In this document: positions 10,029 to 19,651 of the stretch, one piece after another
How positions within the stretch are numbered: position 1 is the first letter of the stretch
Layout of the letters: every line of letters begins with the position of its first letter
NCBI RefSeq assembly: GCF_001466725.1
Contig: NZ_CP013650.1
Coordinates: forward strand, 2,046,001 to 2,110,000
DNA from: Lacimicrobium alkaliphilum
Lineage (GTDB): Bacteria > Pseudomonadota > Gammaproteobacteria > Enterobacterales > Alteromonadaceae
Direction of reading: 5' to 3'
DNA length: 64,000 bases
Translations under genes and position numbers: made by a program
Notes under the pieces: model-generated
The model's input: only the letters and a program-made list of their open reading frames with translations
What the model was told of the DNA's origin: nothing
Databases searched by the model: none

Positions 10029-11665
10029 ATGAAAGATTTTATATTACCGGATATCGGCGAAGGCATAGTGGAATGCGAACTGGTGGAATGGCTGGTCGAG
10101 GAAGGCGATAAAATTGTTGAGGATCAGCCCGTCGCCGATGTGATGACCGACAAAGCCCTGGTACAGATCCCCGCCATGGATACCGGCGTGGTGAAGAAGC
10201 TGTATTACAAGAAGGGTGAAATCGCGAAGGTCCATGAACCCTTATTTGCTATGGAGGTAGAGGGTGAAGGCGGGACTCAGGCCAGTGAAAAAGCCAGCGG
10301 TGATGAGCAAGCCCAAAGCAGCGATGACAGCCCTTCAGCCAGTGCTGATGGGAAATATCAAAGTGGCGGCAAACAGGTCGAGGATTTTATCCTGCCGGAT
10401 ATCGGTGAGGGTATCGTCGAGTGTGAACTGGTAGAGTGGCTGGTCGAAGAAGGTGATGAAATTACCGAAGATCAGCCCGTTGCCGATGTGATGACCGACA
10501 AAGCCCTGGTGCAGATCCCCTCTAAGTTTAATGGCAAAGTGATCAAGCGTTACTACCAGAAAGGCGAGATTGCCAAAGTTCATGAGCCCTTGTTTGCCAT
10601 AGAAATAGATGCAGAACCGGGCTCAGCGCCGCCTGCAACAAAGAGTGCCGGTAAATCTGCGGCATCAGAACCTGACAACCAAAAGCAAAGCGCCAAAAGT
10701 GATGCAACTGCAGCTTCCAAACAGGAAAAATTTCCCGGCGGGGAGTTTGACCCTGAACCGGCACCGCCGGGTAAAGCCCTGGCCAGCCCCGCTGTCAGGC
10801 GTTTAGCCAGAGAGCTGGAAGTGGATCTGAGCAAAGTACAGGGTAGCGGTAAAAAAGGCCGGGTCATGAAGCAGGACCTGCGGGCACTTAAGCAGCAGGA
10901 TTCTGAGTCATCGCAGCAACCCGAACAAACTGCGACTAAAGGGCAGGTGCAAAGCTCTGGTGGCACCAGAGTTGAGCCGATTCGCGGTGTGCGCGCGGCG
11001 ATGGCGAAACAGATGTCGGCGTCGGTATTCAGCATCCCTCATTTCAGCGTCAGCGATGAAATTGAAATGGATGCACTGATGGCGGCCCGGGCGCAGCTCA
11101 AACCTGAATTTGAAAAACAGGGCGTTAAGCTCAGCTTTATGCCCTTTATTATCAAAGCCATGTCACTGGCGCTGAAACAGTTTCCCATCGTCAATGCCCA
11201 GGTCAATGAGGATTGCACCGAACTGACCTATTTTGATGATCACAACATTGGTATGGCGGTGGACTCGAAAATTGGCTTGCTGGTGCCCAATATCAAAGGG
11301 TTCAGCATTTAAGCCTGTTTGAAATTGCCAAAGAGGCCAACCGCCTGATCGAACAGGCCAGGGAAGGGCGCCTGCCGGGCGGGGATCTTAAAAGCGGCAC
11401 CATCAGTATCTCTAATGTGGGTGTGATTGGTGGCACGGTGGCGACACCGGTTATCAATAAACCGGAATCGGCGATTGTGGCGCTGGGCAAGATCCAGCGT
11501 CTGCCACGCTTTGACGAGCAGGATAATGTCAGACCCGTGAATATTATGCATATCAGCTGGTCAGGGGATCACCGGATTATCGACGGAGCCACGATGGTCA
11601 GGTTCAGCAACCTGTGGAAATCCTATCTGGAAAATCCGCTGGCGATGCTGGCCGATATGAAGTAA
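10029..11665 (+). pseudogene. bkdB: E2 dihydrolipoyl acyltransferase of the branched-chain complex, broken by a one-base frameshift
   Basis: Codes for a core E2 with two lipoyl domains (Lys42 and Lys159, each in VMTDKALVQIP), Ala/Ser-rich linkers, a peripheral subunit-binding domain (about residues 255-290) and the acyltransferase domain. The frame is open from 10029 to a stop at 11312, where residue 427 ends in GFSI. The rest of the catalytic domain continues in another frame from about 11300 to 11665 and includes the active-site motif DHRIIDG. Adding one G to the GGG at 11298-11300 restores a 545-residue protein with perfect continuity (KGVQHLSLFEIAKEA). The truncated product would lack the catalytic histidine. 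A sequencing indel at this G run, a true mutation or recoding are all possible; an indel seems likeliest. No E3 gene is adjacent. Confidence 0.88.
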
Positions 11666-11727: not shown

Positions 11728-12216
11728 TTAGTTAAGACTGCTGAGTATCTGCGTGCCGCTGTCTGCTGCTGAAAGTCGTGCCAGATTGCGCTCCGCCAGA
11801 CTATTTGCGGGGTTGAGTTCTGTGGCCCTTTGCATATCCTGCAGGCTCAGTTCGGTTTTACTCTGAACATAGTGCAGCACAGCACGGTTGTTATAGGCAA
11901 TACTTTGATCGCGCTTGTTATTGTGCTGTTCAATAGCCTGATCGCAATAGGTTGAAGCGTTACTGAGCTGGCCAAGGGCGATATAAGCCACGCACAGATT
12001 GGTGTGAGCAGGGGCCGTCAGTTCGCGCATGCGGGTGTTACCCAGCAACGTCTGAAGTTTATGGATGCCGGCCTGGTATTGCCCGGCTTCAATGTTTCTT
12101 ACGCCCGGTATATCCTGATAACTGGTTTTCAGCTCCAGGTTGCCATGAGCCTGAGCATGGCTTATGGCGACAAAAGACAAGGCGAGGGTGGTGGTTTTGA
12201 ATATTGATTTGAACAT
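11728..12216 (-). CDS. Exported tetratricopeptide-repeat protein, function unknown
   Basis: About 162 residues beginning MFKSIFKTTTLAL, with a signal peptide likely cleaved after SHAQA. TPR-like helices fill the rest, most clearly in AYNNRAVLHYVQSKTELSLQ and the following RATELNPANSLAERNLA. The start at 12216 is chosen because AAGGGG lies 7 nt upstream; an earlier in-frame ATG at 12240 has no such site. It is likely periplasmic. It is divergent from the TPR-containing membrane regulator at 12384, so the pair could share a pathway, but no function can be assigned. A terminator shared with the bkd operon lies downstream. Confidence 0.78.
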   Translation of the reverse strand: MFKSIFKTTTLALSFVAISHAQAHGNLELKTSYQDIPGVRNIEAGQYQAGIHKLQTLLGNTRMRELTAPAHTNLCVAYIALGQLSNASTYCDQAIEQHNNKRDQSIAYNNRAVLHYVQSKTELSLQDMQRATELNPANSLAERNLARLSAADSGTQILSSLN

Positions 12217-12383
12217 GGCAAAGCCCCTTATAAATAACACTTGTTGTGAACCTGACTGGTTTATATTGTCGGTACCAGATCGGTTATAAGTGACAACCAG
12301 AGCTTGCGCCTGACGGACAAAGAATGAAAAGCTAATGTTTTGCTAATGGAGAACTTGATGGTGGATAACAGGATGCAGGCCTG

Positions 12384-14681
12384 ATGCAGGAAGGGAAATC
12401 CCCGGACGGGCAATTTAGCATAGAAAATTTTCGAATCGATGCCGGTAATAACAGTATCTACCACGAGCATCAGGTTCTTCATGTTGAGCCACGGGCTATG
12501 CATGTACTCTGGGTACTGGCCGAACATGCCGGACAGACCGTAGAGCGGGAGGTGTTGTTTAGTCGCGTCTGGGGGCAGCAGGTTGTAGTAGAAGAAGCAC
12601 TGACCCGCACTATTTCCCAGCTCAGAAAAGCCCTCAATGACAGCCATTCCAGACAACTTATCCAGACCATACCGAAAAAAGGCTATCGCCTTGCCTGTGA
12701 GGTTAACTGGCAGAATCCGCAATCTGCAGAGGCTGCGGATAACACCGAAAGTGTGGAACAACATAGCCAATCAGCACGGAATACTTCGGCTGCTAAAAGC
12801 GCTCTGACTTCGAAGCCATTTTGGCTGGCAGGACTATTTGTCATACTGATATTGCTGGCATTTACCCTTAACCGATTCACTCAGCCCACTGTGGAATACA
12901 ATAGCTCTGTGCCGGATAAACCGCGGATCAGCGTTCTTCCTCTGAAAAATCTGTCAGGTAATCCTCAACATGATTATCTGGCCAATGGCATTGCCGAGGA
13001 AGTACTGACATCACTGGCACAAACACCGGGTTTGGCGGTGGCATCCCGTTATTCAGCCTTCTCATTTGGCAACACTGACCTTACTCCCCGGCAGATTGCC
13101 GAACAGCTTAAGGTAAGATATCTGCTGGTGGGTAAACTGCAGGGCATTGATGAGCGGGGATATCAGATTCAGGTGGAACTGGTGGATACCAGAAGTGAGG
13201 TGGATGTGTGGCGCCGCAGTTATGCCGGGCCGCAGAAGCAGCTCAGCAAGGTCAGCCACCAGATTAGCTCCGATGTGCGGGATTATTTAGTGCCACAGGC
13301 ATCAGTGACAGGAAATAATCAATGGTCTGCCGCCCGCATTGATGTAGAGGCCTATCAGCACTACCTGCAAGGTCAGTACTGGTGGATGAATGGTTCAACC
13401 AGCGAGTGGTTTTACCGGGCAGAGAAAGCCTTTCTGGATGCGATTAAGATAGCGCCGGATTTTGCCGCGGCCCATGGCAGCCTGGCATATATCTATGCCA
13501 GATATCAGTTTCATGATATTTATATGAACAAAGAGGATGCCATCGACAAGTCCCGCCAGGCCATCGATACGGCCATGGCACTGGATCCTGAGCAGGTGGA
13601 CGCTTTGCATGCTCAGGCGATTCTGGCGACTCTGGACCACCACTTCGAGGATGCCGAAAAAGCACTGCAACAGGCTCTGGCGGTGCGCTCTCCCAATGCT
13701 CAGGCATGGTATCTGTATTCTGAGCTGGCACTGGTACAAAATCAGCCAGACCAGGCGCTGGATTACGCGCTACGAGCCAGAGAGGCAGATCCTCTCTCGC
13801 CCTGGGTCAATATTAATCTGGCCATGGTTTACTATTATCTTGGCCAGTATGAGCAGGCTCTGCAGGCCATCTCGGTGGCTCAGAATGTGGATCCGGAATA
13901 TAGCTGGAGCTATGTCTGGCAGGCCAGAATACTGCATAAAACCGGACGGTTGGCGGAGGCAATTCTGGCCATGCAAAAATGCCTTAGTCTGGATCCCGGC
14001 TCTGCTGCAAACAGTGCCTATCTGGGATTGTTATATCTGGAGCTTGATAAGCAACCCGAGGCGGCCAACTGGTTTGAGCGCACCGCCTCCTTATATGGTG
14101 ACTCCGTTGACGCCCGCTTCTGGAAAAACTTTATTCGTCTGGGATATCAGAACCTGGAACCGCAGATAAGCCTGAGCATGCTGCAATCCATGCAGTCGAC
14201 CCGCACTGGCACCTATAATCTGTTGCCCTTAATGCGTCATCTTTATCTGGCACTTGATCGCCAAAAGCAGGGATTTACCTCACTGGCACAGATGCAGCCT
14301 TCCCCCCTTGAGCCTGATACCACAGTAAATATCCGCAATAGTGAATTAGCACTGGCACTGCAGGTCCTGAGTGAGGATAGAAAGATTAAAAAAGCGCTGA
14401 ATCAACAATTCAGGGAACTCCTGTCCCAATTTCCACAGTGGGCGCTGTACTCTGGGTTCAGGGCTAATCACCTGCTGATACAAGGCCAGACAGAGCGGGC
14501 GCTGGCGGTGTTATTGCAGGCATATCAAAAGGGTTGGATCCCTCTGTGGTGGCTTTTTATCCAAGCCGATCAGAGTGATAATGCCAGGGCATTAAAGGCC
14601 TTACCTGCATTTAACAAGCTGAGCGCCTTAATCGGGGCTAAACAACAACAGCAGCGGCAACAGCTGAACCAGAGGGACTAA
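12384..14681 (+). CDS. CadC-like transmembrane regulator: OmpR-type winged helix plus TolB-like and TPR domains
   Basis: A 765-residue protein. A winged helix-turn-helix DNA-binding domain occupies about residues 10-105 (EEALTRTISQLRKAL recognition region, then IPKKGYRL), followed by a variable linker. One membrane helix lies at about 146-164. A periplasmic domain starting RISVLPLKNLSGN (about 175-300) resembles the TolB-N/FlgO fold seen in CadC relatives, and a long TPR array covers about 320-700. The layout implies a one-component regulator that senses a periplasmic signal and binds DNA while anchored in the membrane. The targets are unknown. It converges on the electron-transfer cluster, with only 18 nt between stop codons. 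The ribosome binding site is weak. Confidence 0.85.
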   Translation: MQEGKSPDGQFSIENFRIDAGNNSIYHEHQVLHVEPRAMHVLWVLAEHAGQTVEREVLFSRVWGQQVVVEEALTRTISQLRKALNDSHSRQLIQTIPKKGYRLACEVNWQNPQSAEAADNTESVEQHSQSARNTSAAKSALTSKPFWLAGLFVILILLAFTLNRFTQPTVEYNSSVPDKPRISVLPLKNLSGNPQHDYLANGIAEEVLTSLAQTPGLAVASRYSAFSFGNTDLTPRQIAEQLKVRYLLVGKLQGIDERGYQIQVELVDTRSEVDVWRRSYAGPQKQLSKVSHQISSDVRDYLVPQASVTGNNQWSAARIDVEAYQHYLQGQYWWMNGSTSEWFYRAEKAFLDAIKIAPDFAAAHGSLAYIYARYQFHDIYMNKEDAIDKSRQAIDTAMALDPEQVDALHAQAILATLDHHFEDAEKALQQALAVRSPNAQAWYLYSELALVQNQPDQALDYALRAREADPLSPWVNINLAMVYYYLGQYEQALQAISVAQNVDPEYSWSYVWQARILHKTGRLAEAILAMQKCLSLDPGSAANSAYLGLLYLELDKQPEAANWFERTASLYGDSVDARFWKNFIRLGYQNLEPQISLSMLQSMQSTRTGTYNLLPLMRHLYLALDRQKQGFTSLAQMQPSPLEPDTTVNIRNSELALALQVLSEDRKIKKALNQQFRELLSQFPQWALYSGFRANHLLIQGQTERALAVLLQAYQKGWIPLWWLFIQADQSDNARALKALPAFNKLSALIGAKQQQQRQQLNQRD

Positions 14682-14699: not shown

Positions 14700-15059
14700 T
14701 TAATCTTCTTTAAGCACGCCAATCTGATAACCGGCCATCATGTCCCAGGCAGTCTGACTGTGGTTGTTGCCATAACCTTTGGTCTTCATGCCTTCTGTTG
14801 CCTCCTTTCCGCACCAGTTTGCCATAACAATGGCAGGGGCAGGATGTTTGGGTATATATTTGCTGAAATCATACACCCGGCTTTCAATCACCATCCAGCA
14901 ATCTTCAGTGGTATTATGCAGGGCTACTTCTGCCAGAGTATAGCCAGTTTTCTCCTCTGCGGCATCAGAAGGGGTTACAGGCACAAGCCAAAATAGCATC
15001 AGCAATGTTCCTACACATGACCAGAAGGCAATAAAGGCGGCGAATCCAACTTGCTTCAT
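14700..15059 (-). CDS. Membrane-anchored periplasmic cytochrome b5-like protein
   Basis: A 119-residue protein with an N-terminal membrane anchor (about residues 5-27) and a cytochrome b5 domain (about 38-116). The segment from YTLAEVALHNT to VYDFSKYIPKHP fits the fold. His72 (in KHPAPA, where the classical motif is HPGG) and His100 (NNHSQ) are the probable axial heme ligands. The GKEATEG segment and the C-terminal IG strand agree with bacterial b5 proteins. A strong AAGGAG site precedes the ATG. It is the last gene of the decaheme-barrel-flavocytochrome run, 11 nt after the flavocytochrome, so it probably carries electrons in the periplasm within that system. This role is inferred. Confidence 0.85.
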   Translation of the reverse strand: MKQVGFAAFIAFWSCVGTLLMLFWLVPVTPSDAAEEKTGYTLAEVALHNTTEDCWMVIESRVYDFSKYIPKHPAPAIVMANWCGKEATEGMKTKGYGNNHSQTAWDMMAGYQIGVLKED

Positions 15060-15070
15060 TTCATTTCTCC

Positions 15071-16396
15071 TTATAAAAGTACAAATTCTTCAGTGGTGAT
15101 GCGGTTTAATGGCACACCGGCATCCGTTAATATTCTGCGGCTGCTGTCAATAAGCGGTACCGGACCGCAAATATAAGCTTCTCTGTGGCTAAAATCCGGG
15201 CAATGCTGTTTAATAAAACAGCTGGTCAGAGGTCCTTGCTGGTAAAAAAAGTGGGGGGTAAAACTTAGGCCGGAAATACTATCAGACAATTTTTGTAGTT
15301 CATCGCCGAATACCAGTCTTGCTTCATCCTGCACACAATAAATGAGATGAATATTCACGTCCTGACTGAGTCTGGCATGGTGTCTGAGCCGTGCCAGAAA
15401 AGGGGTGATGCCGATGCCACCGGCAATCCATAACTCCGACTGATCCGGGCTGGCCTTAGGGTCAAAAAAGCGACCATAGGGGCCCTCTACACTGACTTCT
15501 GTGTTAATTGCAAGGTTTTGCAATGCCCGGCTGCCATCACCCAGTGCTTTGATGGCCATACGCAGGGTCGGCTCACAAGGCGACGAAGACAGCGTATATG
15601 GGTGTTCTTCGTTGTTGCCAGACTCCAGCTCGCGGCAAAAGGGGGTAAAATAAACAAACTGACCCGGCTGGTATTTCAGATGAGCCCGCTGAGGCTGTAG
15701 CGTCAGTTCCACCACATTATTCGCAGGGTGTGTAATTTCAGTTACCTTATAGGGCAGGCGACCACGCCAGCGCGAGAATATCCAGCGGTAGCCGATAGCA
15801 CCAAGGGCCATCAATGCCAGCAAACCCCAGACAATATCTCCCCAATGACCGGGCAGGGTGCGACTGAGCATCAGCGTGTGCACCAAAGCAAATACCACAG
15901 TGACACCACTTAAGTTGTGCATCCATTTCCAGCGCTGGTAATCAGGCTTACCGAAAAAGGCAAAAGTCGGGGCCATAAAAATCATTAAGGCGATAAGTGC
16001 CACCCAGCCCCAAAGCACGGGTCTTTGTGAAGAGAACAATGTATTCACTGCAGCGTTCAGGGAGATTTCCGCGGCGGCAAAAGCGAGTAATAAGGGATGG
16101 GTGAGGATCATCAAAAAGCCAATGGCACCCAGCAGATGATGCAGTTTCCATAATTTAGTCAGTCCGCCAAAGGGTTGATCAAAACCCGGTACCCTGCAAC
16201 AGAGTATGGCGGCCACCAGCAATAACGCCATCCCCCAGATGCCGGTCAGACGTCCCAGCAGATTCAACAGCGCCCCGGCAGATGAAAAATCTGAGGCAGT
16301 GATAAACAACAGGGCTAAAAGGCCGGGCAGAATGGCCAGTGTGAAGGTGATGATTTTACTTTGTGAGAGTACCACTGGTGCTGCCTTAATATTCAT
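15071..16396 (-). CDS. Ferric reductase / NADPH oxidase-like transmembrane flavocytochrome
   Basis: A 441-residue inner-membrane protein. Six or so helices (residues 15-205) carry His86/His100 and His160/His173, spaced 14 and 13 residues apart as in the two-heme NOX and ferric reductase family. The cytoplasmic half has an FAD-binding barrel with HPYTLSSS (265-272) and an NAD(P)H domain with GGIGITPF (326-333) and CGP (410-412). It should move electrons from cytoplasmic NAD(P)H through FAD and two b hemes to the periplasmic side. The ATG overlaps the stop of the MtrB-like gene by 11 nt, indicating translational coupling. Its acceptor may be the b5 or decaheme protein encoded beside it; direct superoxide or iron reduction is the alternative. 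Confidence 0.88.
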   Translation of the reverse strand: MNIKAAPVVLSQSKIITFTLAILPGLLALLFITASDFSSAGALLNLLGRLTGIWGMALLLVAAILCCRVPGFDQPFGGLTKLWKLHHLLGAIGFLMILTHPLLLAFAAAEISLNAAVNTLFSSQRPVLWGWVALIALMIFMAPTFAFFGKPDYQRWKWMHNLSGVTVVFALVHTLMLSRTLPGHWGDIVWGLLALMALGAIGYRWIFSRWRGRLPYKVTEITHPANNVVELTLQPQRAHLKYQPGQFVYFTPFCRELESGNNEEHPYTLSSSPCEPTLRMAIKALGDGSRALQNLAINTEVSVEGPYGRFFDPKASPDQSELWIAGGIGITPFLARLRHHARLSQDVNIHLIYCVQDEARLVFGDELQKLSDSISGLSFTPHFFYQQGPLTSCFIKQHCPDFSHREAYICGPVPLIDSSRRILTDAGVPLNRITTEEFVLL

Positions 16397-18602
16397 ATCG
16401 ATAACTTAAGCCCAACCAGGTCGCCTGATACCGGGGGCTCCGCTGCCCGGGTAACAGAACATTGCTAAGGGTATTCATTGCGACATTATCCAGGGCAAAA
16501 TCATCGCTGTCGTAGGTCTCCCTGATAAGAGTCAGTGCTGCAGATGATGATGCAGATAAATGATAGCGTGCAGTCAGATTCGCTGTATTTAATTGTGTTT
16601 TAAGATCCGGCAGCGGTGCGCTTTGCAAGACGCTGCCATGATGATTGATCATCTCACCGACAGAACGACTGTGGTTAAATGACATTGACAGATCCAGGGT
16701 TCCTTGTGCCTGCCAGTCAGAAAAGGCCGGTCTGAGGCCCTGACGTTCCAGGCTAAATCCCAGTGTCTGAAAATCATCGCTGGCACTGACTTGCCAGTTG
16801 CGCTGTGGATCGAAAGCTTCAGCCGGAGCAAATCCGCGAAAGGAGCGGCCGGATTGCTGATATTGATAGTTGTCATAGCTATAAAATCCGGAAAGTTGCC
16901 AGTCCTTATCGCTGATATAACTGATATTGCCGTTAACCGAGTACATCTTTGAGCTGTTGAGTCCGAAGTGGCCGTCAGGATAGGTATCCTGGTTCCAGCT
17001 TAGTTGTGCCCCCAGACTCAGCGAAGTCTGAGGGTACCAGTCCGCTTGTAACGACACGCTATCCCGGTCCCGTTCACTCAGGTAGTACTTGCGCAGTAAG
17101 GGATGGTTCTCAAACTCTTCGGCCTCTGTAGTGCCGGGAACATGAGTCTGAATCAGTGGCCGGTTGCCAATATAGTCATCGGTGCGTCGCTGCTGGTGAG
17201 AATAACTGACTGCCATCGCCAGTGTCTCAAAGTAATGGCTGCGAAAGCCCAGGCGGATATCATTTTCCCTGGCCCGGGTAATTTCTGAATAATCCCGACG
17301 GGTGTCCGTGTAGTGATAACCCGCCTGTAACTGTGTTGCTGTCATTAGCCGCCAGTTCGCCTCGAGGTTTGCCTTACGTTTACTCAGGCTGTAAGGACGA
17401 TTTAACCTGGCATCGGCAAAGCCCTGCTGATAAGCGGCATCGCCGGCAACCCGCTGGTAGGCTGCCACAGGCGTCTGATTGTCTCTGTCACGGTACGCTA
17501 ACCTGGCGATCAGATTCAGGCCCGATAAGGGTCGTGAACTCAGGCGCAGATTGAGGTTAGTGGTGTCCACCCTGCCATCCAGCGACTGCATGGGCAGGGA
17601 AGCATTAACAATCAGCCGGGAGTTCGCAGTATAGGATAAAAAGCTCTGATTCTGAGATTGGCGTCCCAGTGCGGCATCAAGATAAAGCCGTGTGTAAGGT
17701 GTGAAGCGATAACTCCCGTTGACGCGAAACTGATGCGCCTGGTTATCCGGCTCTGTGGCCATCTGATTGATGCCATCAGGGAAACCCACCCCCGCAGCCC
17801 ACTGAGGATGTTGTCCGAAGGCCGTGGGCCAGATTACTGAGGTCAGGGTATTGTCAAAAAATGAGCCGTGATAGCCCAGTGTCCAGCTTAACCTGCTGCC
17901 CAGATATGCCAGAGAAATACTGGCCTGATGGGTCTGATGATCCACTGGTGCCGCCAGTAAAACCGCGCGCACATTGCCACCGCTGGAACCCGTGGCACCG
18001 CCAAGGGCCTTGGTCCCTGTGACGCTGTCCCGGCGAAAATCAACATTCAAGGCCCAGTTTTCACCCAGGTTCCGCTGATAATCCAGTTCCAGCCAGTGGC
18101 GCTTGTGCCTGAGGCTGACAGGGTTCAGATGATCAGAAACAGAGGTCATGCCCGCAGTGGTGTTATCGTTAACCTGCCAGTTGCCTGGCAAGCTGAATTT
18201 TGCCAATCCGGTACTGTAAAAAGGGGTATGGGCATCATCATAGTCATATCCTGATATCTGGCGCCAGTTCAGATCCACTGACTGGTTATCATCAAACTGT
18301 CCTTTGAGCATAAAACGTGCAGACGACAGACCGAGTTGATTAGCTCCAATCTGCCATTTATCGGTGTCTGTGAATCCGGGCAAGAGCAGGTCAATATTAA
18401 CAAATGGCGTGAACCCCAGGTCATTGACACCATGGGAACTGCCAAACTGCCAGGCATCCTGGTCAAGGTATCCGAGACTGGCTTCAATATTCCCCTGCAA
18501 AGATTCAGTGGCTTGCACGCACAAACCACTGCTCAGGCATAGCAGGAGCAGGCTTACGCAGTTTGCAGGGAGTGTTCTGTGGGTGAATAGGGTCATCGGC
18601 AT
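16386..18602 (-). CDS. MtrB/PioB-family outer membrane beta-barrel associated with a decaheme cytochrome
   Basis: A 738-residue protein with a signal peptide (about residues 1-31) followed by alternating aromatic and polar strands up to the C-terminal YRYEY, the expected end of an outer-membrane barrel. Length, the N-terminal GNIEASLGYLD strand and the position directly after a DmsE/MtrA-type cytochrome fit the MtrB/PioB family. Those proteins wrap a multiheme cytochrome and let electrons cross the outer membrane. No CXXC pair is visible in the mature N-terminus, unlike Shewanella MtrB. It starts 3 nt after the cytochrome gene and overlaps the flavocytochrome gene by 11 nt. Confidence 0.87.
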   Translation of the reverse strand: MPMTLFTHRTLPANCVSLLLLCLSSGLCVQATESLQGNIEASLGYLDQDAWQFGSSHGVNDLGFTPFVNIDLLLPGFTDTDKWQIGANQLGLSSARFMLKGQFDDNQSVDLNWRQISGYDYDDAHTPFYSTGLAKFSLPGNWQVNDNTTAGMTSVSDHLNPVSLRHKRHWLELDYQRNLGENWALNVDFRRDSVTGTKALGGATGSSGGNVRAVLLAAPVDHQTHQASISLAYLGSRLSWTLGYHGSFFDNTLTSVIWPTAFGQHPQWAAGVGFPDGINQMATEPDNQAHQFRVNGSYRFTPYTRLYLDAALGRQSQNQSFLSYTANSRLIVNASLPMQSLDGRVDTTNLNLRLSSRPLSGLNLIARLAYRDRDNQTPVAAYQRVAGDAAYQQGFADARLNRPYSLSKRKANLEANWRLMTATQLQAGYHYTDTRRDYSEITRARENDIRLGFRSHYFETLAMAVSYSHQQRRTDDYIGNRPLIQTHVPGTTEAEEFENHPLLRKYYLSERDRDSVSLQADWYPQTSLSLGAQLSWNQDTYPDGHFGLNSSKMYSVNGNISYISDKDWQLSGFYSYDNYQYQQSGRSFRGFAPAEAFDPQRNWQVSASDDFQTLGFSLERQGLRPAFSDWQAQGTLDLSMSFNHSRSVGEMINHHGSVLQSAPLPDLKTQLNTANLTARYHLSASSSAALTLIRETYDSDDFALDNVAMNTLSNVLLPGQRSPRYQATWLGLSYRYEY

Positions 18603-18605
18603 GCC

Positions 18606-19559
18606 TTAGCGGGTCAGGCCCGAGCCTGACGGATGATTGCTGCCGTGTACCTGAGAATGACAATTCATACAGTCTTTACCCAGTAAATTAGAGGATGCGC
18701 CCCTTGGTGGAATACCGGTACCGCTTTCCTGATTACTCGGATGAAAGGCGGCCTGATGACATTGCTGACACAGAAAAGGCGTTCGGGCGTTGAGTAACGC
18801 ATTGTGGTTGGAGCCATGGGGTGTATGGCAACTACTGCAATCTTCGGTTACCGGCGCGTGTTCCCATAAAAAGGGACCGCGTTTCTCTGCATGGCAGTCA
18901 AGACACTGTTCATTCAGAGTGAAGGCTTTCAGTTCCGCCGGTCCCGGTCCGCCATGGGGTGAATGACAGTCGATGCAGTTCATATGGCCTGAACGCAGCG
19001 GGTGGCTGGAGGGGCGCATTATCTGAGCACGCTGGCGCTGATGGCAGTCCATACACTGATTGTTAAGTTGCACAAACTTTTTCATCGCGTCATCCTCCTG
19101 ATGGATGGTGTGACAGCTGGTGCAGCCCTGTTGACTGAACTCATGGGCACTGCCGGCCCAATAATGCCCGGCCGTATCCTGGTGACAGTCTAAACATACC
19201 TCATCGCGCTGCTGAGCAGGCTGATCTGAATTAAAAACCATAGCAGGCGGCGGACGCACCCCATTCACCAGCTTTAAATGACTGGCACTTGGACCATGAC
19301 AGCTCTGGCAACCCTGCTGGTTGGTCGAAAAAGGGGTGTTTTCAGATGAGGATTGTCCATGCACACTGTGCATCACACTCTCGGCTGGATGGTCACTGTC
19401 AGCACCATGGCACATCAGGCACAGCTTTGGATCATTGGGCATATATTCCCGCTCAATATCCGTTGTTTCGCTGCTAATTGAATTGCCGGACAGTATGGTG
19501 AAAGCCATAAGCCAACCCGCCAGCCACAATTTTGATGCGCCCTTGCTGAGTATTTTCAT
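18606..19559 (-). CDS. Periplasmic decaheme c-type cytochrome, DmsE/MtrA family
   Basis: A 317-residue exported protein with exactly ten CXXCH heme-attachment motifs: CLMCH, CQSCH, CLDCH, CTSCH, CMDCH, CIDCH, CLDCH, CSSCH, CQQCH and CMNCH. Heme number and length match MtrA/DmsE/PioA proteins, which form the wire inside an MtrB-type barrel. The start MKILSKGASK at 19559 is preferred because AGGA lies about 7 nt upstream; an ATG 33 nt earlier lacks a site. A signal peptide follows. It is the first gene of a four-gene minus-strand run. A near-consensus FNR box lies about 80 nt upstream. Partner reductases such as MtrC or DmsA are absent from the window. Confidence 0.93.
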   Translation of the reverse strand: MKILSKGASKLWLAGWLMAFTILSGNSISSETTDIEREYMPNDPKLCLMCHGADSDHPAESVMHSVHGQSSSENTPFSTNQQGCQSCHGPSASHLKLVNGVRPPPAMVFNSDQPAQQRDEVCLDCHQDTAGHYWAGSAHEFSQQGCTSCHTIHQEDDAMKKFVQLNNQCMDCHQRQRAQIMRPSSHPLRSGHMNCIDCHSPHGGPGPAELKAFTLNEQCLDCHAEKRGPFLWEHAPVTEDCSSCHTPHGSNHNALLNARTPFLCQQCHQAAFHPSNQESGTGIPPRGASSNLLGKDCMNCHSQVHGSNHPSGSGLTR

Positions 19560-19637
19560 TGATTTCCTGTCAAATGATATTCCCCCAAGCATACTAGTAC
19601 AGAAATTCCTTATCTGTCGGCACAGACGTATTGTTTT

Positions 19638-19651
19638 TTGAGCTATATCAA
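19638..19651 (-). promoter_or_regulatory. Candidate FNR-type operator for the decaheme cytochrome operon
   Basis: On the minus strand the site reads TTGAT-ATAG-CTCAA, nine of ten matches to the FNR/EtrA consensus TTGAT-N4-ATCAA. A GATAAG -10-like hexamer at 19614-19609 would put the transcription start near 19602. The box would then be centred at about -42, the class II activator position. The implied leader is about 43 nt. Hand-aligned; a chance match is possible but the geometry supports it. Confidence 0.5.

Follow-up and report, generated by a model that had tools for sequence, protein, structure and literature searches.

An MtrAB-type conduit encoded together with a NOX-like flavocytochrome and an anchored cytochrome b5 in Lacimicrobium alkaliphilum: a conserved gene unit and a proposed NAD(P)H-fed electron path

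Results

Organization of the cluster and identity of its products

The stretch of the Lacimicrobium alkaliphilum genome analysed here, 64,000 nucleotides long (contig NZ_CP013650.1, positions 2,046,001 to 2,110,000) and referred to below as the window, contains at 14700-19559 four consecutive genes on the minus strand, which encode a decaheme cytochrome c, an outer-membrane barrel, a flavocytochrome that resembles NOX proteins and ferric reductases (here called FR), and an anchored cytochrome b5 (here called b5) (Table 1). In the order mtrA-mtrB-FR-b5, the first two genes are separated by 3 nt and the last two by 11 nt, while mtrB and FR overlap by 11 nt. Coordinates and profile matches confirmed these families and distances as proposed in an initial annotation of the window, and its assignment of a ten-heme MtrA was borne out by ten CXXCH motifs and the match to the DmsE-type model. 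The cluster, in which a NOX-like module for NAD(P)H entry accompanies an MtrAB conduit, is real and conserved; the electron path that we propose for it is a supported hypothesis.

Table 1. Positions of the cluster genes, the candidate regulatory site and other features in the window and in loci of other genomes
Feature	Sequence	Positions	Strand	Details
DmsE/MtrA-type decaheme cytochrome c	window	18606..19559	-	10 CXXCH, likely signal peptide; TIGR03508 5e-79; phmmer 6r2q_A 3e-67
MtrB/PioB-type outer-membrane barrel	window	16386..18602	-	738 aa; PF11854 3e-131; TIGR03509 1e-115; 6r2q_B 3e-47
FR	window	15071..16396	-	441 aa; Ferric_reduct 4e-10, FAD_binding_8, NAD_binding_1
N-terminally anchored cytochrome b5	window	14700..15059	-	119 aa; PF00173 (Cyt-b5) 2e-18; 1cxy 4e-23
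Candidate FNR/Anr-type site TTGATNNNNATCAA	window	19638..19651	.	1 mismatch; centre ~85 nt upstream of mtrA start
Lipoamide acyltransferase (E2) gene	window	10029..11662		frameshifted near 11300
TPR protein and CadC-like regulator	window	11728..14681		between E2 and b5
CadC-like winged-helix/TPR regulator	window	12384..14681		convergent with b5
mtrAB, then fumarate reductase flavoprotein gene	L008	3390..8838		Xanthomonadales
Eight-CXXCH cytochrome, divergent to mtrA	L010	2641..5510		PF22113 1e-9
FR-b5 with NorR and YtfE	L027	1716..11687		

The start of mtrA was placed at the Met that precedes the likely signal peptide, whereas the mechanical open reading frame starts at 19592. The closest solved sequences for MtrA and MtrB are chains A and B of 6r2q, which is named as MtrAB in PMC10654088. 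With its ten CXXCH motifs and adjoining barrel gene, the pair has the features of a porin-cytochrome conduit, in which the barrel would sheath the decaheme MtrA, and electron transfer across the outer membrane is predicted. FR has six predicted transmembrane helices and two His pairs (H86 or H87 with H100, and H160 with H173), which together with its FAD- and NAD(P)-binding domains are the features of NOX and FRE proteins. Its closest solved sequence and fold is SpNOX (8qt6), deposited as an NADPH oxidase; FR is NADPH oxidase-like by fold only. The b5 protein consists of a single N-terminal hydrophobic helix followed by the cytochrome b5 domain, its closest solved sequence being 1cxy, deposited as cytochrome b5. 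Two His and two Cys residues are invariant in all 14 rows of the b5 alignment; the His pair presumably provides the axial heme ligands, and a periplasmic location is predicted.

Distribution and gene order in relatives

Scanning the contigs of named genomes by alignment to MtrB yielded 10 loci in nine genomes (L002-L011). The order mtrA-mtrB-FR-b5 on one strand was found in the window, in Lacimicrobium sp. SS2-24 (L002), in Marinimicrobium agarilyticum (L003) and M. alkaliphilum (L004), and in L005 and L006. FR-b5 and mtrAB are convergent units in L011 (L007, which belongs to the same metagenome-assembled genome (MAG), is truncated after mtrB), and FR-b5 is likewise convergent with the adjacent mtrAB in L019, from genome G288 of the class sample. 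The initial annotation had proposed looking for the same four-gene order in relatives; this order was present in 6 of the 8 genomes with both modules (the window, L002-L006, L011/L007 and L019; G417 was treated as the genome of L002 and counted once) but not in the other two, which have the modules as adjacent convergent units. The genomes of three further mtrAB loci (L008, L009 and L010) had no FR match at 1e-40. One of these, L008 of a Xanthomonadales MAG, is another case of an unusual MtrAB neighbour, since mtrAB is followed there by a gene for a fumarate reductase flavoprotein and then by an open reading frame cut by the contig end.

The b5 gene follows FR in 12 of 12 close FR loci for which DNA was examined, G060/L022 being excluded because its only FR is distant (28% identity) and lacks b5. 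Furthermore, in the homologues P0052 and P0059 the two are fused in a single protein, with the anchor helix and b5 domain following FR without a break. FR is expected to end on the cytoplasmic side, so that the helix kept in the fusions would bring b5 to the periplasm. By indirect record matching, 19 of the first 40 MtrB clusters, including that of the window, pair with an FR cluster; because the FR clusters were drawn from the best 120 of 709 FR matches, further pairings may exist. In a class sample of 369 gammaproteobacterial genomes, 6 had an FR match (5 close, 1 distant) and 34 had MtrB above the cut-off. In a sample of 295 genomes from the family, 3 had FR, including that of the window, and one genome of the same genus in this sample had no match.

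Search for the usual donors and acceptors

The initial annotation stated that neither a CymA-type donor nor an MtrC-type acceptor is present and proposed looking for mtrC, omcA and cymA elsewhere in the genome. A genome-wide search with one model for each family agreed with this: there was no match to PF03264 for NapC/NirT, the family of CymA, with which the E. coli control was positive, and none to TIGR03507 for MtrC/OmcA, which scored above the cut-off in G667. The genome has a single MtrB (one PF11854 match), and its only Paired_CXXCH matches are in this MtrA. In the Pfam scan, neither the operon nor the neighbouring window genes encoded DmsAB, which was not searched genome-wide.

None of the 8 genomes with both modules has MtrC/OmcA above the cut-off (one 17.9-bit match in G666 is below it), and 6 of the 8 have no NapC/NirT match. 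An MtrC-family protein scores above the cut-off in one of the three genomes that have MtrAB but lack FR; a match under the cut-off occurs in one and a NapC/NirT protein in one. The numbers of genomes in this comparison are small and several are MAGs; the pattern fits a replacement of the quinol donor by FR-b5. The upstream gene of L010 is a side observation: the eight-CXXCH cytochrome divergent to mtrA matches PF22113 (MtrC/MtrF-like), a model that also matches the MtrA of the window, and a perfect FNR-type site lies between the two genes.

Sequences upstream of mtrA

Sites were scored against the FNR/Anr consensus. The site upstream of mtrA in the window (Table 1) is a candidate low-oxygen promoter element, and Lacimicrobium sp. 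SS2-24 has the same site. Near mtrA elsewhere, L004 and L011 carry a site with one mismatch and L005 one with two, and the sites of L019 and of L010, whose genome lacks FR, match perfectly. Both units of L019 are preceded by perfect sites, at ~74 nt for mtrAB, whose start there is approximate as the position used has no start codon, and at ~66 nt for FR-b5. Within one mismatch, sites occurred in 5 of 10 regions (L002, nearly identical to the window, and L007, which belongs to the MAG of L011, were omitted) versus 6 of 57 other upstream regions taken from these loci, a moderate enrichment (Fisher p 0.008); among the six control regions, two share a site located between FR and its divergent neighbour in L019 and two others share one in L009, leaving 4 independent sites. 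The whole window contains 4 FNR-type sites versus 3.4 expected, which is not exceptional, and therefore only position and recurrence favour the site upstream of mtrA. The genome encodes FNR above the curated cut-off.

Two other regulators were considered. Scanning upstream of mtrA in 12 stretches for Fur boxes gave best matches with 6-9 mismatches of 19, and thus no sign of iron regulation. The CadC-like regulator was set aside because it is convergent with b5 and is absent at that place in Lacimicrobium sp. SS2-24. The TPR protein gene next to it is not there in SS2-24 either, a difference that is a lineage-specific insertion or loss. Beyond them, the E2 gene is frameshifted, and residues 1-422 and 423-543 of the SS2-24 E2 protein match the window in different frames, reflecting either a real lesion or a sequencing error.

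Discussion

We consider it on balance probable that the cluster forms an outward, trans-envelope conduit that bypasses quinones and runs from NAD(P)H through FR, b5 and MtrAB, at low oxygen and under the control of FNR. In this conduit, FR would bind NAD(P)H and FAD at the cytoplasmic side, where hydride would pass from NAD(P)H to FAD, and single electrons from FAD would cross the inner and then the outer transmembrane b heme to the periplasmic face. The membrane-anchored b5 would take up these electrons and pass them to MtrA in the MtrB barrel, from where the ten c hemes would lead them to the outermost heme, facing the medium, and to an acceptor without the help of MtrC. Ferric chelates, flavins and humics are candidate acceptors; with MtrC missing, a soluble or small acceptor is probable. 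The system would serve as an NAD(P)H redox valve, and because its steps would be downhill and include no known pump, redox balancing would be expected instead of ATP-yielding respiration. Each electron transfer step is deduced from the protein families, and we infer the direction of flow, the contacts between the partners, the acceptor and the regulation. A broader version is put forward more tentatively, as something quite possible that stops short of probable: that this is a complete quinone-free line from cytoplasmic NAD(P)H to the exterior of a Gram-negative cell, in which a portable FR-b5 has been plugged into MtrAB, giving a two-membrane counterpart of the NOX and FRE enzymes of eukaryotes that FNR switches on and that was recruited more than once.

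A joint function of the four genes, as suggested in the initial annotation, is supported in part, by the conserved unit, by the SpNOX-like FR in the position of the donor, by the constant succession of FR and b5 and by the lack of NapC/NirT and MtrC/OmcA matches in the genome of the window. Several observations weigh against it. Scattering of the genes in relatives, which the initial annotation had named as evidence against a joint function, was found in part, at the level of the FR-b5 module: FR-b5 occurs in L018 (G120), L020 (G368) and L021 (G362) without any MtrB match in the genome, and in L027 without mtrAB beside it, the rest of that genome (G550) not having been searched for MtrB. FR-b5 therefore has a use that does not depend on a conduit, and is a module of its own that became linked to MtrAB. 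In the class sample, only 2 of the 34 MtrB genomes also have a close FR, which occurs in 5 genomes. The MtrAB-linked FRs do not form one clade in the FR tree, where they require at least 11 label changes over 51 rows, a count that is indicative since 23 rows are of unknown context (one of them, P0073, being identical to the linked L006), 16 are labelled as linked by indirect record matching only, and long branches meet. We read this as a module that was repeatedly brought together with MtrAB or separated from it. Both fusion proteins group with L027 and not with the MtrAB-linked FRs, so that they support the coupling of FR to b5 and not the link to MtrAB. As for the donor, a NapC/NirT protein is present in both Marinimicrobium genomes, and the search covered the NapC/NirT family and not CbcL, ImcH or NetBCD. 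As for regulation, an FNR-type site within two mismatches is missing near mtrA in L003 and L006, that of L005 has two, no site within two mismatches was found upstream of FR in L011, L018, L020, L021 and L027, and 6 of the 57 control regions carry a site within one mismatch.

These observations bear most directly on an alternative that we regard as unlikely, in which two modules merely share an address: FR-b5 would serve another periplasmic purpose, for instance in nitric oxide (NO) or low-oxygen stress, by feeding a periplasmic reductase or oxidase, MtrAB would be fed by another periplasmic cytochrome, and the two would be adjacent because both are induced at low oxygen. The four loci without MtrAB and the separate convergent units of L011 and L019 are in line with such independence. 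In L027, genes for NorR, YtfE (Fe-S repair), a PAS histidine kinase-response regulator pair and a nucleotidyltransferase share a stretch with FR-b5, neighbours that hint at an NO or low-oxygen role for FR-b5. However, independent modules would not readily account for the same-strand order in six genomes, the overlap and 3-nt gap in the window, or the lack of the usual donor and acceptor matches in most genomes with both modules.

Very unlikely, in our view, is a surface system for superoxide formation or oxygen reduction, that is, a bacterial NOX with its reach lengthened to the cell surface. The solved fold closest to FR is indeed that of an NADPH oxidase, but periplasmic superoxide formation should need neither b5 nor a ten-heme wire, and the FNR-type sites suggest expression at low oxygen; together with the encoded FNR, these sites make us lean towards low-oxygen electron disposal over oxygen-consuming roles. 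An inward conduit, with extracellular Fe(II) oxidized as by MtoAB or PioAB and electrons delivered through FR to NAD(P)+, is highly improbable: electron flow from Fe(II) to NAD+ is uphill, we know of no pump with the FR fold, and the operon has no further cytochrome or iron-sulfur partner, even though it does encode a member of the MtrB/PioB family without an MtrC match. A 2023 survey also lists Marinimicrobium among the holders of pio/mto homologues (PMC10654088). Finally, hardly any credence can be given to a delivery line resembling DmsEF that would serve a surface molybdoenzyme, such as a DMSO or iodate reductase, with its genes located elsewhere: MtrA does score with the DmsE subfamily model, but the scan of the window neighbours, which was not extended genome-wide, found no molybdoenzyme.

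The proposed NAD(P)H-fed conduit shares parts with several known systems. The decaheme MtrA and the MtrB barrel are clearly homologous to the MtrAB core of Shewanella MtrCAB (6r2q); in contrast to MtrCAB, FR and b5 stand in the place of the donor here, in a genome without MtrC/OmcA or NapC/NirT matches. The MtrA also resembles DmsE of Shewanella DmsEFAB, whereas the operon has FR and b5 and no DmsAB. As in the Fe(II)-oxidizing MtoAB and PioAB conduits, an MtrAB-type pair occurs without MtrC, but MtoD, PioC or a quinone-linked partner is missing from the operon, and FR would run outward. FR has the fold, FAD and NAD(P) domains and two His pairs of SpNOX, eukaryotic NOX and FRE ferric reductases; those enzymes pass electrons straight to oxygen or Fe(III) at the membrane that holds them, whereas the electrons of FR would reach b5 and an outer-membrane wire.

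A 2017 survey reported ferric-reductase-like His motifs in inner-membrane proteins near other porin-cytochrome clusters (PMC5566968). Like FR, these PCC3/PCC4 proteins, with HX13H motifs, are two-b-heme inner-membrane proteins encoded with a porin-cytochrome complex; they are thought to be quinone-active, whereas FR carries flavin and NAD(P) domains. That report was set aside as a precedent, as it describes a different system and its apparent cytochrome b5 is a b561. The three families of inner-membrane entry points to extracellular electron transfer in a 2018 survey are all multiheme c-type quinol oxidases (PMC6295460), to which a 2022 survey adds the quinol dehydrogenase NetBCD (PMC8805035). 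The latter places CymA, NetBCD and MtoC near mtrCAB and reports MtrCAB in a Marinimicrobium sp., whereas the two Marinimicrobium genomes here gave no MtrC match. No description of the FR-b5-MtrAB combination was found in the open-access literature searched, and the excerpt of PMC11475568 contains nothing on it.

Conclusions

Whether FR feeds MtrA becomes a question that is directly testable in a few strains. If it does, an entry point fed by NAD(P)H would make extracellular reduction independent of the quinone pool, and the four genes would constitute a ready-made part for connecting NAD(P)H to electrodes.
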